In this document: one piece after another, positions 18,360 through 54,822 of the stretch
How the letters are laid out: every line of letters begins with the position of its first letter
Position numbering within the stretch: the stretch's first letter is position 1
DNA from: Candidatus Methylopumilus sp.
GTDB taxonomy: Bacteria > Pseudomonadota > Gammaproteobacteria > Burkholderiales > Methylophilaceae
Direction: 5' to 3'
Assembly (NCBI GenBank): GCA_024640945.1
Contig: JAHEEA010000002.1
Location: 1-64,000, forward strand
Length of the DNA: 64,000 nucleotides
Notes under the pieces: generated by a model
Databases searched by the model: none
What the model was told of the DNA's origin: nothing
The model's input: the letters and a program-made list of their open reading frames with translations, nothing else
Position numbers and translations under genes: made by a program

Positions 18360-19163
18360 TTAGAAAGTTTTTTGAACAAAAGCAGTTAGGTAATCTTTAC
18401 CAATATTTAAGCCATCGTTACCAGCTTTATATAGAGCTGAGTCTGTGTTTGTGCCAGTGTAGTAACCACCAACACTTACGCCATTAGACCAAGCCTTTGT
18501 TAAACCAAGTTTATAGTCGGTATAGCTATAGTCATCATTCTTAACACCCATCGTTTTACCTGAAAACTCTTGACGACCGACATGACCCACTACTGTTAAA
18601 CCAGTTTCACCAATTGGATAATTAGCATTCAATTCAGCATAGTATGTACCGTCTGCATTGTCATAACCCCAAGCACCGTTAGATGCAACTACAGAAACTT
18701 TCGCACTTAACCATTTGTAAGCCAAGCTACCGTAAACTTCTGTTGTTTCTGCGCGTTTATAACCATAAGCGTCTCTAGCAGCCTTGCTTTGTTTGCCTGG
18801 GTAGTAATACTGAAGTGCACCAACGTTATATGTGATATCACCAATAGTGTTGCTGTAACCACCATACAAATCTAATTCCAAGCTTGAGCGGTCATATGAA
18901 CTAGCGTCCTCCAACCAACTAATATTAGAACCCCAAGCGCCTGCATAAAAACCGCTTGAGTGTGTAAAATCAACGCCACCTTGTAAAGCTGGGTCTTCGC
19001 GAGTTTGTGTCAAACCACGGAAAATGTATTGGCTGAATAAGCCAACGTTGTAAGCTACAGTATATGGAGCTGTTTCAGCTGCTTTAGCAGCTTCTTCAGC
19101 CATTACCACTTGTGAAGTAGCCAAAGTACCTAGTACCGCTACCAATAATAAAGATTTACGCAT
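18360..19163 (-). CDS. TorF-type putative outer membrane porin (TIGR02001-like)
   Basis: 267 residues. The signal peptide (MRKSLLLVAVLGTLATSQVV then MAEE) is followed by a beta-rich body with the family opening YNVGLFSQYIFRGLTQTREDPALQGG and a C-terminus ending in Phe (LTAFVQKTF), as in outer membrane barrels. The ATG at 19163 is chosen over a frame extending to 19232 because the predicted sigma-54 transcript starts at about 19205 and the signal peptide begins here. GGAAGAG precedes the ATG. Co-transcription with glnK-amtB suggests a pore for ammonium or another small nitrogen source; this is inference. Confidence 0.82.
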   Translation of the reverse strand: MRKSLLLVAVLGTLATSQVVMAEEAAKAAETAPYTVAYNVGLFSQYIFRGLTQTREDPALQGGVDFTHSSGFYAGAWGSNISWLEDASSYDRSSLELDLYGGYSNTIGDITYNVGALQYYYPGKQSKAARDAYGYKRAETTEVYGSLAYKWLSAKVSVVASNGAWGYDNADGTYYAELNANYPIGETGLTVVGHVGRQEFSGKTMGVKNDDYSYTDYKLGLTKAWSNGVSVGGYYTGTNTDSALYKAGNDGLNIGKDYLTAFVQKTF

Positions 19164-19214
19164 TGCTCTTCCTTTACAAAAATGAAAACAAAAAATAAAA
19201 CTACGGGCAAACAT

Positions 19215-19232
19215 AAGCAATACCCGTGCCAA
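19215..19232 (-). promoter_or_regulatory. Sigma-54 promoter of porin-glnK-amtB
   Basis: On the minus strand the sequence reads TTGGCACGGGTATTGCTT, with GG (-24) and GC (-12) 10 nt apart, matching the RpoN consensus at nearly every base. The predicted start is about 19205, giving a 42-nt leader before the porin ATG. Confidence 0.9.
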
Positions 19233-50214: not shown

Positions 50215-50231
50215 TGCACCAAAATAGTGCA
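50215..50231. promoter_or_regulatory. NtrC-binding site 1 of glnA
   Basis: TGCACCAAAATAGTGCA is a 17-bp dyad nearly identical to the NtrC consensus (TGCAC-x7-GTGCA). Its centre is 127 bp before the predicted glnA start and 30 bp, about three helical turns, from site 2. Confidence 0.85.
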
Positions 50232-50323: not shown

Positions 50324-50340
50324 TGGCATAGTTCCTGCTA
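50324..50340 (+). promoter_or_regulatory. Sigma-54 promoter of glnA
   Basis: TGGCATAGTTCCTGCTA has GG at 50325-50326 and GC at 50337-50338, exactly 10 nt apart as RpoN requires. The predicted start is about 50350, giving a 46-nt leader to the glnA ATG. Confidence 0.82.
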
Positions 50341-50395: not shown

Positions 50396-51805
50396 ATGGC
50401 AATCGCCGACGTAATGAAGATGGTGAAGGACAACGACATTAAGTTCGTTGATTTCCGTTTCACTGATACTCGTGGTAAAGAACAACACGTTACAGTGCCT
50501 GTTTCAGCATTTAACGAAGAAAAATTCACTGAAGGCCATGCATTTGACGGCTCTTCAATCTCTGGTTGGAAAGGTATTCAAGCATCTGATATGCAATTGA
50601 TGCCAGATCCAGATACAGCAAACATCGATCCATTCATGGACGAACCAACATTGATTTTAACTTGTGACGTTGTTGACCCTACAGATGGTAAAGGTTACGA
50701 CCGTTGCCCACGTAGCTTGGCAAAACGCGCTGAAGCTTACTTAAAATCAAGCGGTATCGGTGATACAGCTTACTTTGGCCCAGAGCCAGAATTCTTCATT
50801 TTTGATTCAATCCAATGGGATGTAAGCATGAGCGGTAGCTCAGTGCGTATCAATTCTGAAGAAGGTGCTTGGGCTTCAAACGACAAATTCGAAGGTGGTA
50901 ACACTGGTCACCGTCCTGGCGTTAAAGGTGGTTATTTCCCAGTACCTCCAGTCGATTCATTGCAAGACGTACGTTCTGCAATGTGTATCGCACTTGAAGA
51001 GATGGGCGTGCCTGTTGAAGTGCATCACCATGAAGTTGCAACTGCTGGTCAATGTGAAATCGGTACTAAATTCAGCACATTGACAGAACGCGCTGACTGG
51101 ACACAAATTACTAAGTACGTTGTGTTGAATACAGCTCACGCTTACGGTAAAACAGCGACATTCATGCCTAAACCTTTCGCTGGCGATAACGGTTCTGGTA
51201 TGCACGTTCACCAATCAATCTGGAAAGATGGCAAAAACTTGTTCGCTGGTAACGGCTATGCGGGTTTGAGCGATTTCGCGCTTTACTACATCGGCGGCAT
51301 TATCAAGCACGCTAAAGCATTAAACGCGATTACTAACCCAGGTACTAACTCATACAAACGTTTGGTTCCACACTTTGAAGCACCAGTTAAATTAGCTTAC
51401 TCAGCTAAAAACCGTTCTGCTTCAATCCGTATCCCATTCGTTCACTCTGACAAAGCACGTCGTGTTGAGGCTCGTTTCCCAGATCCAATCGCTAACCCAT
51501 ACTTGGCATTCAGCGCATTGATGATGGCAGGTCTTGATGGCGTTCAAAACAAGATTCACCCAGGTGAGCCAGCAACAAAAGACTTGTACCATCTTCCACC
51601 AGAAGAAGACGCATTGATCCCAACAGTTTGTGCTTCATTAGAAGAAGCATTAGCAAACTTGGACAAAGACCGTGAGTTCTTAACTCGTGGCGGTGTGTTC
51701 TCTGATGACTGGATCGATGCTTACATTGCATTGAAAATGGAAGAAGTTAACAAGCTACGTATGACACCACACCCAGCTGAGTTTGGTTTGTACTATAGCT
51801 GCTAA
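50396..51805 (+). CDS. glnA: Glutamine synthetase type I
   Basis: 469 residues, the usual length of the beta-type dodecameric enzyme. [13 protein letters not shown] near residue 50, [13 protein letters not shown] near 126, and [17 protein letters not shown] near 258 form the active site. The adenylylation loop tyrosine is in [12 protein letters not shown] near 398, so the enzyme is probably switched off by GlnE. AGGAG lies 6 nt before the ATG. NtrC sites and a sigma-54 promoter precede it and a strong terminator follows. Confidence 0.99.
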
Positions 51806-51828: not shown

Positions 51829-51856
51829 AAAAAGGCGGGGCAACCCGCCTTTTTTA
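51829..51856 (+). terminator. Terminator of glnA
   Basis: AAGGCGGG and CCCGCCTT around GCAA, followed by a T-run. Confidence 0.92.
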
Positions 51857-51940: not shown

Positions 51941-52183
51941 ATGAAGAAATTTATTCTCTACTTTGCAACACTTGCCAGCTTCAATTGCCTCTACGCGCAT
52001 GCAGAGATTTACAAGTGCAAAGAAAAGTCTGGCGAAATTGTGTTTATGGATGGCAACAGCAAACAAATACTCATGAGTGAGTTAGAGCTAGAACAAAAAG
52101 CACTCGCTACAGCAAAGACTCAACGACCTTCAGGCGTTTTACTTCACGAAAAAAATATAGAACTTCTTAAAAAAAGAAATTAA
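51941..52183 (+). CDS. DUF4124-type small exported protein
   Basis: 80 residues. Signal peptide MKKFILYFATLASFNCLYAHA, then EIYKCKEKSGEIVFMDGNSK, the DUF4124-like motif, and a charged helical tail. Function unknown. It lies between glnA and ntrB, as is common in betaproteobacteria. Its stop codon ends at the base before an NtrC site. Confidence 0.75.
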   Translation: MKKFILYFATLASFNCLYAHAEIYKCKEKSGEIVFMDGNSKQILMSELELEQKALATAKTQRPSGVLLHEKNIELLKKRN

Positions 52184-52200
52184 TGCACTAAAGTAGTGCA
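52184..52200. promoter_or_regulatory. NtrC-binding site of ntrBC
   Basis: TGCACTAAAGTAGTGCA, a near-perfect NtrC dyad starting immediately after the stop codon of the DUF4124-type gene. Its centre (52192) is 98 bp before the predicted start, almost the same distance as glnA site 2. Confidence 0.87.
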
Positions 52201-52263
52201 CATCACACCTAATAAGTAGTAAGGTACGTCTTATATCAACAATACCTTGTGAAGCTACGTGCT

Positions 52264-52280
52264 TGGCACGCCGGTTGCTT
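52264..52280 (+). promoter_or_regulatory. Sigma-54 promoter of ntrBC
   Basis: TTGGCACGCCGGTTGCTT (52263-52280) matches the RpoN consensus, with GG at 52265-52266 and GC at 52277-52278. The predicted start, about 52290, is next to the ATG at 52291. Confidence 0.9.
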
Positions 52281-52290
52281 ATTAGAAAAC

Positions 52291-53409
52291 ATGAATCAAA
52301 ATACGCCTTCTTCTTTTGCCGGACTTGAACATCTTGCAACGGCGATCATTCTTTTAGATGACCACCTTAAAGTCACTTATGCCAATCCAGGGGCAGAGGT
52401 GCTTTTTGCACTGAGCGCAAAACAAATTGTCGGACAATCAATCTCACAGGTTTTTCCTGGCTGCGATATCTTATGTTCTGCTGTAGAAAACTCATTAAGA
52501 ACCAACAGCCCATTCCGAGAGCACGAGTTTTCAATTACTACACCAAGGCAAGCTTCTCTAGCAGTTACCTGCACAGTGACGCCGGTTGACCAGCCTCCAG
52601 CATCACTGGTGCTTGAGTTCCAGCAAATGGATCAACAGCTTCGTATTGCTCGTGAAGAAAGAATGTTAATTCATCAACAAGCCAATACTGAATTACTAAG
52701 AAATCTTGCTCACGAAATTCGCAATCCATTAGGTGGACTCAGAGGTGCGGCGCAACTACTTGAACATGAACTGCCAGACCCAAGCTTGCGTGAATATACT
52801 CAGGTCATCATTAAAGAAGCTGACCGATTACAACTTTTAATGGATCGATTATTGGTACCACATCGTGTACCAAAATATGAACCGACTAATATTCACGAAG
52901 TCCTCGAGCGCGTAAGAAGTTTGTTGCTGGCAGAGTCACCACAAAATGCTTCTAAAGATCATCCAAAAGCGATTACTGTAAAACGCGATTATGACACCAG
53001 CCTACCTGACATTATTGGCGATAGAGAAAAACTGATTCAAGCTGTACTCAATATTGCCCGCAATGCAGCTCAAGCAATGCAAGCAAGCGGTCAACAAAAT
53101 GGTGAAATCACCCTAAGAACCCGTGCTGAACGTCAAGTGACTTTAGCCAAGAAGCGCTATCGCGTCGCCATCAAATTACAAATTATTGATAATGGCCCAG
53201 GCATCCCCGCTGAAATTCGCGATCGGATTTTCTATCCCCTTGTTTCTGGCCGTGAAGGCGGATCTGGGCTCGGGCTAACATTAGCGCAAACATTTATCAC
53301 ACAACATCACGGGATGATTGAGTGTGAAAGCGAACCTGGTCGCACATGCTTTACGATTTTATTGCCAATCGAAAGCACGGCCATGAAAACAATCTCAAGT
53401 AAGCAATAA
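52291..53409 (+). CDS. glnL: Nitrogen regulation sensor kinase NtrB
   Basis: 372 residues. An N-terminal PAS domain (about 10-110), the phosphorylated His141 in LAHEIRNPLGGLRGAA, and an ATP domain with NIARNAAQAM and DNGPGIP near 305. No membrane segment: a cytoplasmic kinase controlled by PII. It phosphorylates NtrC when nitrogen is short. ATG at 52291 is chosen because the PAS domain follows directly; the frame to 52249 would start upstream of the sigma-54 promoter. No Shine-Dalgarno is visible before it. Confidence 0.95.
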   Translation: MNQNTPSSFAGLEHLATAIILLDDHLKVTYANPGAEVLFALSAKQIVGQSISQVFPGCDILCSAVENSLRTNSPFREHEFSITTPRQASLAVTCTVTPVDQPPASLVLEFQQMDQQLRIAREERMLIHQQANTELLRNLAHEIRNPLGGLRGAAQLLEHELPDPSLREYTQVIIKEADRLQLLMDRLLVPHRVPKYEPTNIHEVLERVRSLLLAESPQNASKDHPKAITVKRDYDTSLPDIIGDREKLIQAVLNIARNAAQAMQASGQQNGEITLRTRAERQVTLAKKRYRVAIKLQIIDNGPGIPAEIRDRIFYPLVSGREGGSGLGLTLAQTFITQHHGMIECESEPGRTCFTILLPIESTAMKTISSKQ

Positions 53410-53433: not shown

Positions 53434-54822
53434 ATGAAACCAATTTGGATTATTGACGACGACAAATCAATACGCTGGGTATTTGAAAAAGCGCTCGCTC
53501 GCACAGAACTAGAGTTCAAAACTTTTTCTTCTGTACCGGAAGCCATGGCAGCCCTTACAAAAGAAGAACCACAAGTCATTGTCAGCGACATTCGCATGCC
53601 TAACGGATCTGGTTTAGATTTCTTACAAGACATTAAACAAAAACTTCCAGACACCCCCGTCATCATCATGACGGCCTATTCAGACTTAGAGAGTGCGGTT
53701 GCTGCTTTTCAAGGTGGCGCGTTTGAATACTTAGCAAAACCATTTGATGTTGATCAGGCAATCGACGTGATTCGCCGCGCAGTAGACGAAAGTCAGCGCC
53801 AAACACAGGAAACGGAAGCGCCTGAAGAAACACCAGAAATCATTGGCCAAGCGCCCGCAATGCAAGAAGTGTTTCGCGCTATTGGCCGTCTGAGTCGCTC
53901 ACATGCAACCGTGCTTATTAATGGCGAATCAGGTACTGGCAAAGAACTTGTTGCTAGCGCATTACATCGCCATAGCCCACGTGCAGAGAAACCTTTTATC
54001 GCGATTAATACAGCGGCCATTCCAAAAGATTTATTAGAGTCTGAGTTATTTGGGCATGAACGCGGTGCGTTTACAGGTGCTCAAGCTGCGCGCCGTGGAC
54101 GCTTTGAACAAGCAGATGGCGGCACACTATTCTTAGACGAAATTGGCGATATGCCAGCCGACTTACAAACACGTTTACTACGTGTACTTTGTGATGGTCA
54201 GTTTTATAGGATTGGCGGACATCAGCCAGTTAAAGTGAACGTTCGTATTATCGCAGCAACACATCAGGATTTAGAAGATCGCGTAAAACAAGGTCTATTC
54301 CGTGAAGACTTATTCCATCGCTTGAACGTGATTCGTCTTCGCTTGCCTGCACTCCGTGAACGACCTGAAGATATTCCATTGCTAGTAAAACACTTCCTCC
54401 AACATAGTGCACAAGAACTCGGGGTAGAAGCAAAACAACCAACATCAGCTGCACTACGATACCTCGCCACCATGAGCTGGAGCGGCAACGTACGCCAATT
54501 AGAAAATGTGTGTCACTGGCTAACAGTGATGGCGCCAGGCCAAAATATTGATGTTGCAGATTTGCCGCCAGAGTTAAAAGATGACTCAACGAAACCTTCA
54601 AGTGCGACTTCATGGCAAGAAGCATTAGCAGCAGAAGTATTTAATGCACTAGCACGTGGCGAACAAAATGTACTTGATCCCCGCACACGAGAATTTGAAA
54701 AAATCTTAATTACGCAAGCTTTGCAACACACGAATGGAAGACGTATTGAAGCAGCAACACAGCTTGGAATGGGTAGAAATACACTGACTAGAAAGATCCA
54801 AGAACTGGGCATTGAAGATTAA
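53434..54822 (+). CDS. glnG: Nitrogen regulation response regulator NtrC
   Basis: 462 residues: receiver domain with Asp52 ([13 protein letters not shown]), AAA+ sigma-54 activator domain with [11 protein letters not shown] near 170 and the sigma-54 contact loop GAFTGA near 219, and a Fis-type helix-turn-helix at the end ([20 protein letters not shown]). Phosphorylated NtrC activates sigma-54 promoters. It follows ntrB by 24 nt. The three sigma-54 promoters of this window are likely targets. Confidence 0.98.

Follow-up and report, generated by a model that had tools for sequence, protein, structure and literature searches.

The window, the whole stretch of 64,000 nucleotides that was analysed, belongs to a genome of 1.55 Mb whose nearest named relatives, as judged by NtrB, are Methylophilaceae. 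It contains, in this order, glnA, an 80-aa open reading frame, ntrB and ntrC (Table 1). The ntrB and ntrC genes are adjacent, and both of their products score over the curated cut-offs of their families (371 bits against 240 for NF008293, the NCBIfam family NR(II), and 707.8 bits against 558.6 for TIGR01818). The match of NtrB to its family begins at residue 4 and its PAS fold at residue 11. By eye, the 80-aa reading frame has a signal-peptide-like start.

Table 1. Features of the window considered in the text; positions are counted from the first nucleotide of the window.
Feature	Position	Strand	Remarks
TorF-family putative porin (Gcw_chp)	18363-19231	minus	perfect sigma-54 site upstream
NtrC-type palindrome of glnA	50215-50231		own site upstream of glnA
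Sigma-54 site of glnA	50324-50339		weaker, 2 mismatches
glnA	50396-51805	+	leader 46 nt, SD TAGGAG
Terminator-like hairpin	51837-51851	+	behind glnA, before ntrB
80-aa open reading frame	51941-52183		lies between glnA and ntrB; matches neither Pfam nor NCBIfam
NtrC-type palindrome TGCACTAAAGTAGTGCA	52184-52200		centre 98 nt before predicted +1
In-frame GTG	52249-52251	+	upstream of the ATG and of the promoter; rejected as start
Sigma-54 promoter TGGCACgccggTTGCT	52264-52279	+	-24 TGGCAC, -12 TTGCT, perfect consensus
Predicted transcription start zone	52288-52292	+	52290 by -12 numbering
ntrB (glnL)	52291-53409	+	372 aa, ATG start at 52291; NF008293, PAS/HisKA/HATPase_c
ntrC	53434-54822	+	462 aa, downstream partner of ntrB; TIGR01818, 707.8 bits

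Sigma-54 promoters follow the consensus TGGCAC-N5-TTGCW, in which GG and GC stand at an invariant spacing. Exact sites of this kind occur five times in the genome, the one before ntrB included, and the reversed pattern does not occur at all. The transcription start of such promoters is placed by numbering from the -12 element; because the C at -12 is nucleotide 52278, the predicted +1 is 52290, and the predicted leader of ntrB is then a single nucleotide. Note that the start sites of sigma-54 promoters can move by a few bases. No Shine-Dalgarno (SD) sequence lies ahead of the ATG, and bases of the promoter occupy the place where it would be. These results confirm the starting point of the earlier note, which had placed a sigma-54 start near 52290, directly before the only fitting ATG of ntrB, and had remarked on the missing SD. 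When the eight loci of the genus are aligned, four conspicuous blocks can be made out in the stretch that leads up to and includes the start. These are the NtrC palindrome, which is missing in one of the eight, the motif TATAGAAT, which most of the eight contain, the sigma-54 element, which is kept in all eight loci (window included), and the ATG.

A potential concern with this arrangement is whether the start codon is correctly placed. The next methionine is residue 113, so that a later ATG start would delete the PAS domain. Upstream, the sole in-frame non-ATG start is a GTG 42 nt before the ATG, and the frame between the two is open. This GTG was rejected as the start of ntrB, as it is missing from all seven other loci of the genus. 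Translation could nevertheless begin there on a basal transcript, or ntrB could be read from upstream transcripts only, the sigma-54 site being fortuitous or vestigial. The open frame would permit the first of these, but the absence of the GTG from the rest of the genus speaks against it, as does the frequency of the promoter motif: a sigma-54 site (score of 9 or more) was present at 207 of 295 ntrB loci of the order and absent from 88, whereas the reversed motif was found at 2, its complement at 7, and versions with the spacer altered by 1-2 bp at 3-10, indicating that the sigma-54 motif at ntrB is far above chance. In addition, sigma-70 promoter matches upstream of ntrB were not above chance (1 match vs 1.4 expected). 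We therefore regard a start at the GTG or a vestigial promoter as very improbable. The same scan bears on the proposal of the earlier note that basal transcripts from an upstream promoter would carry a leader. This proposal is still a guess: the scan gave no excess over chance, and the one candidate sigma-70 -10 sequence, TATAGAAT, which lies beside the NtrC site in most loci of the genus, is absent from the window. GGTATAGAATG or a near form of it is conserved in the genus (L007, L008, L010, L011, L012 and L013), downstream of the NtrC palindrome by about 20 bp; it has the look of a sigma-70 -10 element whose -35 would lie under the NtrC site, and it is absent from the window.

We then compared the promoter-to-ATG spacing within Methylophilaceae. 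An ntrB match was obtained in 168 of 187 genomes, and 147 loci were read; left out were G033, which begins or ends 13 bases short of the edge of its contig, the partial loci G032 and G093, and lower-scoring matches including G101, which belongs to the genus of the window. Counting sites that score at least 8, the predicted leader measured 0-4 nt at 36 loci, 14-18 nt at 9 and at least 27 nt at 94, and 8 loci had no site. The 36 short-leader loci all start with ATG and represent 15 of the 24 genera, among them Methylobacillus, Methylovorus, Pseudomethylobacillus and Novimethylophilus; each locus read in those 15 genera is of the short type. The spacing comparison suggested by the earlier note thus favors a start of transcription at or close to the ATG in 15 genera and also reveals a split, the relatives of Methylotenera and Methylophilus having predicted ntrB leaders of at least 27 nt. 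In a tree of 109 NtrB proteins, to which genera g2 and g16 (leaders of 14-18 or about 32 nt) do not belong, the long-leader Methylophilaceae form one clade (56 rows, SH-aLRT 95), and every scored Methylophilaceae row outside that clade is short, so that the short leader is likely the ancestral state among the Methylophilaceae sampled.

The short-leader loci also allowed an examination of the spacer itself. Its length after TTGCT is 10-14 nt throughout. Identity between genera is above chance in its first three bases (63%) and its last three (45%), and stands at 29% for positions 4-7 vs 26% expected. In 22 of the 36 loci an open frame of at least 60 codons comes to its end no more than 43 bp from the promoter, which makes read-through possible. 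Two further observations concern the leader-bearing loci. An inverted repeat, AGCAAT-N5-8-ATTGCT, was often seen by eye soon after the -12 TTGCT in leaders of the long-leader clade (L170, L173, L197, L199 and other Methylotenera and Methylophilus loci), and could act as an operator or form a stem-loop at the 5' end. The idea that the leader-bearing loci, too, have a leaderless transcript, made from a sigma-70 -10 box adjoining the ATG, was rejected as a general rule, such a box being found at 21 of 94 loci vs 24.8 (sd 4.2) expected from shuffled sequences; such boxes are frequent in genera g7 (5/6) and g19 (9/14) alone.

To extend the comparison, we sampled 120 genomes of the order, including 4 from Methylophilaceae. 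An ntrB gene was found in 106 and 86 loci were read, 11 of which had no usable match in a short stretch; 4 duplicates were dropped before the count. Families f24, f20, f46 and f14 were added because a short leader had turned up there, the loci of f24 and f20 being the best 30 places. Among the 207 loci with a sigma-54 site, 164 have one clear ATG or GTG start, 39 are ambiguous and 4 lack a start within 120 nt; TTG starts were ignored throughout the 295 loci. The 164 clear-start loci fall into two groups, 75 with a leader of 0-6 nt and 89 with one of at least 12 nt (12-17 nt, 9; 18-25 nt, 18; 26-40 nt, 48; more than 40 nt, 14), and none has a leader of 7-11 nt or an ATG or GTG at -2 to -1. This distribution fits a requirement that the leader be either missing altogether or of a length that permits ordinary initiation. 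Possible starts inside the gap do occur: in the ambiguous set, a GTG at 11 nt in L256 and L372, each of which has an ATG as well, at 5 or 2 nt, and, among the ignored codons, a TTG at 7 nt in L132, L244 and L254, each with an ATG further on. Leaders measured 1-2 nt in all 23 unambiguous loci of f24 (from the best 30 places) and 4 nt in the three loci of f46 (two genomes), whereas f20 (again from the best 30 places) and f14 are mixed. The prediction of the earlier note that a sigma-54-driven mRNA would begin at the ATG or one base from it is thereby strongly supported, the spacing being kept in 15 genera of Methylophilaceae and in loci of four other families of the order. The start codon is ATG in 75/75 of the short-leader loci vs 80/89 of the others, with 9 GTG (Fisher p 0.004, raw); we dropped this avoidance of GTG as an independent proof, as it is not significant once phylogeny is taken into account (5 independent pairs). 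Note that the loci are not independent, because leader state changed seldom (5 changes on one tree and at least 7 on the other, wider one).

The upstream palindrome was fitted to an NtrC pattern that we take to be that of E. coli. The pattern matches exactly at three sites in the genome, namely before ntrB, before glnA and before the ammonium transporter gene, and the backwards pattern at two; with one mismatch, 5 places were found in the window vs 3.9 expected. Since the backwards pattern is found twice, the count alone is not above chance, and the weight of the palindrome before ntrB comes from its position and its conservation in the genus. Its position at -98 agrees with the distance of activator sites (about 80-150 bp upstream), as would befit a predicted NtrC site. 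A palindrome with 8/10 bases or better is present in 7 of the 8 loci of the genus, window included, and in these seven it lies between 98 and 149 bp from +1. It is likewise present in 13/13 scored loci of g2 and g16, in 2/28 loci of the other leaderless genera, and in 3/87 loci of the long-leader genera g7, g9, g15, g18 and g19. Its rarity in the last two groups makes NtrC control there an assumption. For the link to autoregulation drawn in the earlier note, a good putative site is thus at hand in the genus of the window and in few loci of the other leaderless genera.

The scarcity of palindromes also raises the question of whether the sigma-54 site acts in another way, with a closed sigma-54 holoenzyme parked over the start of ntrB so as to stop read-through or basal transcription, and with the leaderless mRNA a minor product. 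The holoenzyme is described as inactive on promoter DNA without an activator (PMC4591121), 26 of the 28 loci of the other leaderless genera have no near NtrC palindrome, and in many loci an open frame ends so close before the site that read-through may need blocking. A roadblock, however, does not require a distance of 0-6 nt to the ATG and leaves the empty 7-11 nt zone unexplained, and in the window and six other loci of its genus a palindrome is located where an enhancer usually is (-98 to -149). We give such a role little credence.

We also examined the ntrB loci for SD sequences. For the short-leader loci of Methylophilaceae, the anti-SD energy was no better than that of shuffled sequences (-0.86 vs -1.05 kcal/mol). 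With a short SD motif, a 4-nt match was present in 3 of the 36 loci, and the mean anti-SD energy was stronger in short-leader loci (-1.85) than in long-leader loci (-0.48). With a longer SD motif, 16 of the 36 loci had a 4-nt match vs 5.1 expected, most of the matching bases falling before the predicted +1. In Methylophilaceae whose ntrB leader exceeds 20 nt, no SD above chance was found; for long-leader loci outside Methylophilaceae the values were 10/33 vs 7.7 expected, with an energy of -3.30 vs -2.23. We consequently rejected the missing SD as evidence by itself: leader-bearing Methylophilaceae ntrB genes also lack an SD, so that its absence alone proves nothing, ntrB evidently tolerates a leader, and the translation of ntrB in these relatives needs explaining too. 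A loose search of the 187 genomes and of the window's own genome (11 places) for a sigma-54-like site followed by an ATG within 6-15 nt was not used, as it gave matches in every genome and was thus too loose.

That leader-bearing relatives do without an SD lends some weight to the view that a leader of 0-4 nt is fortuitous, the outcome of intergenic compactness passed on by descent, and that ribosomes initiate in the ordinary way, without an SD, because the start is unstructured and A/U-rich, the spacing being under no selection. The 5' 40 nt of the predicted ntrB mRNA are almost without structure (-0.8 kcal/mol), the open frames that end just before the site in 22 of the 36 short-leader loci attest to compactness, and the few state changes mean that the short leaders are not independent cases. 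Yet the length of the spacer is held while identity in its middle is near chance, the distance from the NtrC site to +1 varies by some tens of base pairs in the same intergenic region of the genus (98 to 149 bp), and unambiguous ATG or GTG leaders of 7-11 nt are lacking. On balance we consider inheritance of an unselected spacing unlikely.

Other sigma-54 genes of the genome provide a comparison for the arrangement at ntrB. The ammonium transporter gene (amtB, PF00909; L036, C7:32462-35478) has a leader of 70 nt with the SD GAGGAG, and upstream of it lie two NtrC-type palindromes, one of them exact and the other similar, together with a sigma-54 site. The TorF-family porin gene has a leader of 42 nt with the SD AAGGAAG. 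The sigma-54 sites of glnA and of the ammonium transporter gene are weaker matches. An SD match of 4-5 nt precedes glnA in 67/67 named loci scored. Because glnA, amtB and the porin gene combine sigma-54 sites with leaders of 42-70 nt and SD sequences, the close spacing is a property of ntrB and not of sigma-54 genes generally.

One of the closest known systems is glnALG of E. coli, in which glnAp2 is a sigma-54 promoter and glnLp a sigma-70 promoter repressed by NtrC. The window resembles it in the NtrB and NtrC proteins, in the NtrC palindromes upstream of glnA, and in the predicted control by NtrC of its own operon. It differs in that E. coli has the sigma-54 promoter before glnA and a sigma-70 promoter next to ntrB, whereas ntrB of the window has a sigma-54 promoter of its own that touches the start codon. 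The leaderless bacterial genes known to us use sigma-70-type promoters. What is new here is a predicted sigma-54-driven leaderless ntrB with conserved spacing, of which no description was found in the open-licence literature searched; sigma-54 promoters of ntrB had been predicted before, and leaderless genes were known, including those of Cupriavidus metallidurans and Burkholderia cenocepacia, two species that we assign to the GTDB order of the window. A computed regulon gives predicted sigma-54 promoters for ntrB-class kinases (COG3852) in beta- and gamma-proteobacteria (PMC12316311), in which respect the window is alike; the words "leaderless" and "start codon" are absent from the main text of that paper, and its available part does not discuss how far the promoter is from the ATG. 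In C. metallidurans, 4.67% of primary transcription start sites (TSSs) are reported as leaderless, with under 5 nt (PMC7563307), and in B. cenocepacia the TSS lies at the start codon in 72 genes and within 10 nt in 42 more, 24 of these being tRNAs (PMC4603805). Both papers report that transcription regulators are over-represented among the leaderless genes (PMC7563307, PMC4603805). As described for these two species and for Deinococcus-Thermus (PMC12340547), leaderless genes likewise have a transcription signal in the place of the SD, this signal being TA-rich in B. cenocepacia (PMC4603805) and a -10 element in Deinococcus-Thermus (PMC12340547), whereas here it is a -24/-12 promoter, an element that the available parts of those papers do not mention at this distance. 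The TSS map of Sinorhizobium meliloti contains 171 leaderless TSSs, all with AUG, and 112 sigma-54 TSSs (PMC3616915); both classes are thus present, and the available part of that paper describes no overlap between them and no ntrB case. Leaderless mRNAs are reported to be bound mostly by 70S ribosomes, at an initiation codon that coincides with the 5' end or lies very close to it, and GUG on such mRNAs to be much less efficient in E. coli (PMC9031893).

Taken together, the data make it likely that ntrBC has its own sigma-54 promoter with +1 at or a few bases before the AUG, that its mRNA is leaderless, and that the spacing is selected. The sigma-54 promoter is probably the switch for ntrB in nitrogen shortage: NtrC-P would bind the palindrome, about 98 bp further upstream, and from there open the sigma-54 polymerase, so that the ntrBC mRNA made would start 5'-(0-4 nt)-AUG. 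Being leaderless, this mRNA would have to be read by recognition of the 5'-terminal AUG in place of an SD. Selection would keep the spacing because with a promoter any closer the AUG would be lost from the transcript, and leaders of about 7-11 nt may be avoided as too long for the leaderless mode and too short for ordinary initiation. That many relatives keep the close spacing suggests that it matters.

The case of ntrB touches on the general question of why particular bacterial genes are leaderless. Here the gene of a central regulator has its sigma-54 promoter fused to the AUG in many genera, and the sister lineages with leaders of at least 27 nt provide a natural control, so that the same gene, promoter class and regulator could be compared with and without a leader in nitrogen shortage. 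The empty 7-11 nt zone yields a sharp prediction as to the leader lengths that ribosomes tolerate, and the results suggest that start-site annotation based on the SD would do badly for ntrB here. More tentatively, and with rather more doubt than confidence, we propose that sigma-54-driven leaderless ntrB under nitrogen shortage extends through much of the order, with promoter and AUG fused (0-6 nt, not 7-11 nt) and NtrBC tied to the translational state. Leaderless mRNAs respond to the levels of initiation factors and of initiator tRNA; being read mostly by intact 70S ribosomes and responsive in this way, such an mRNA would make the induction of NtrBC follow the translational state of the cell. 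If this is true, NtrBC induction would be hard-wired to the translational state of starved cells as a transcription-translation feed-forward switch, and the long-leader Methylotenera and Methylophilus lineages would have left that switch.
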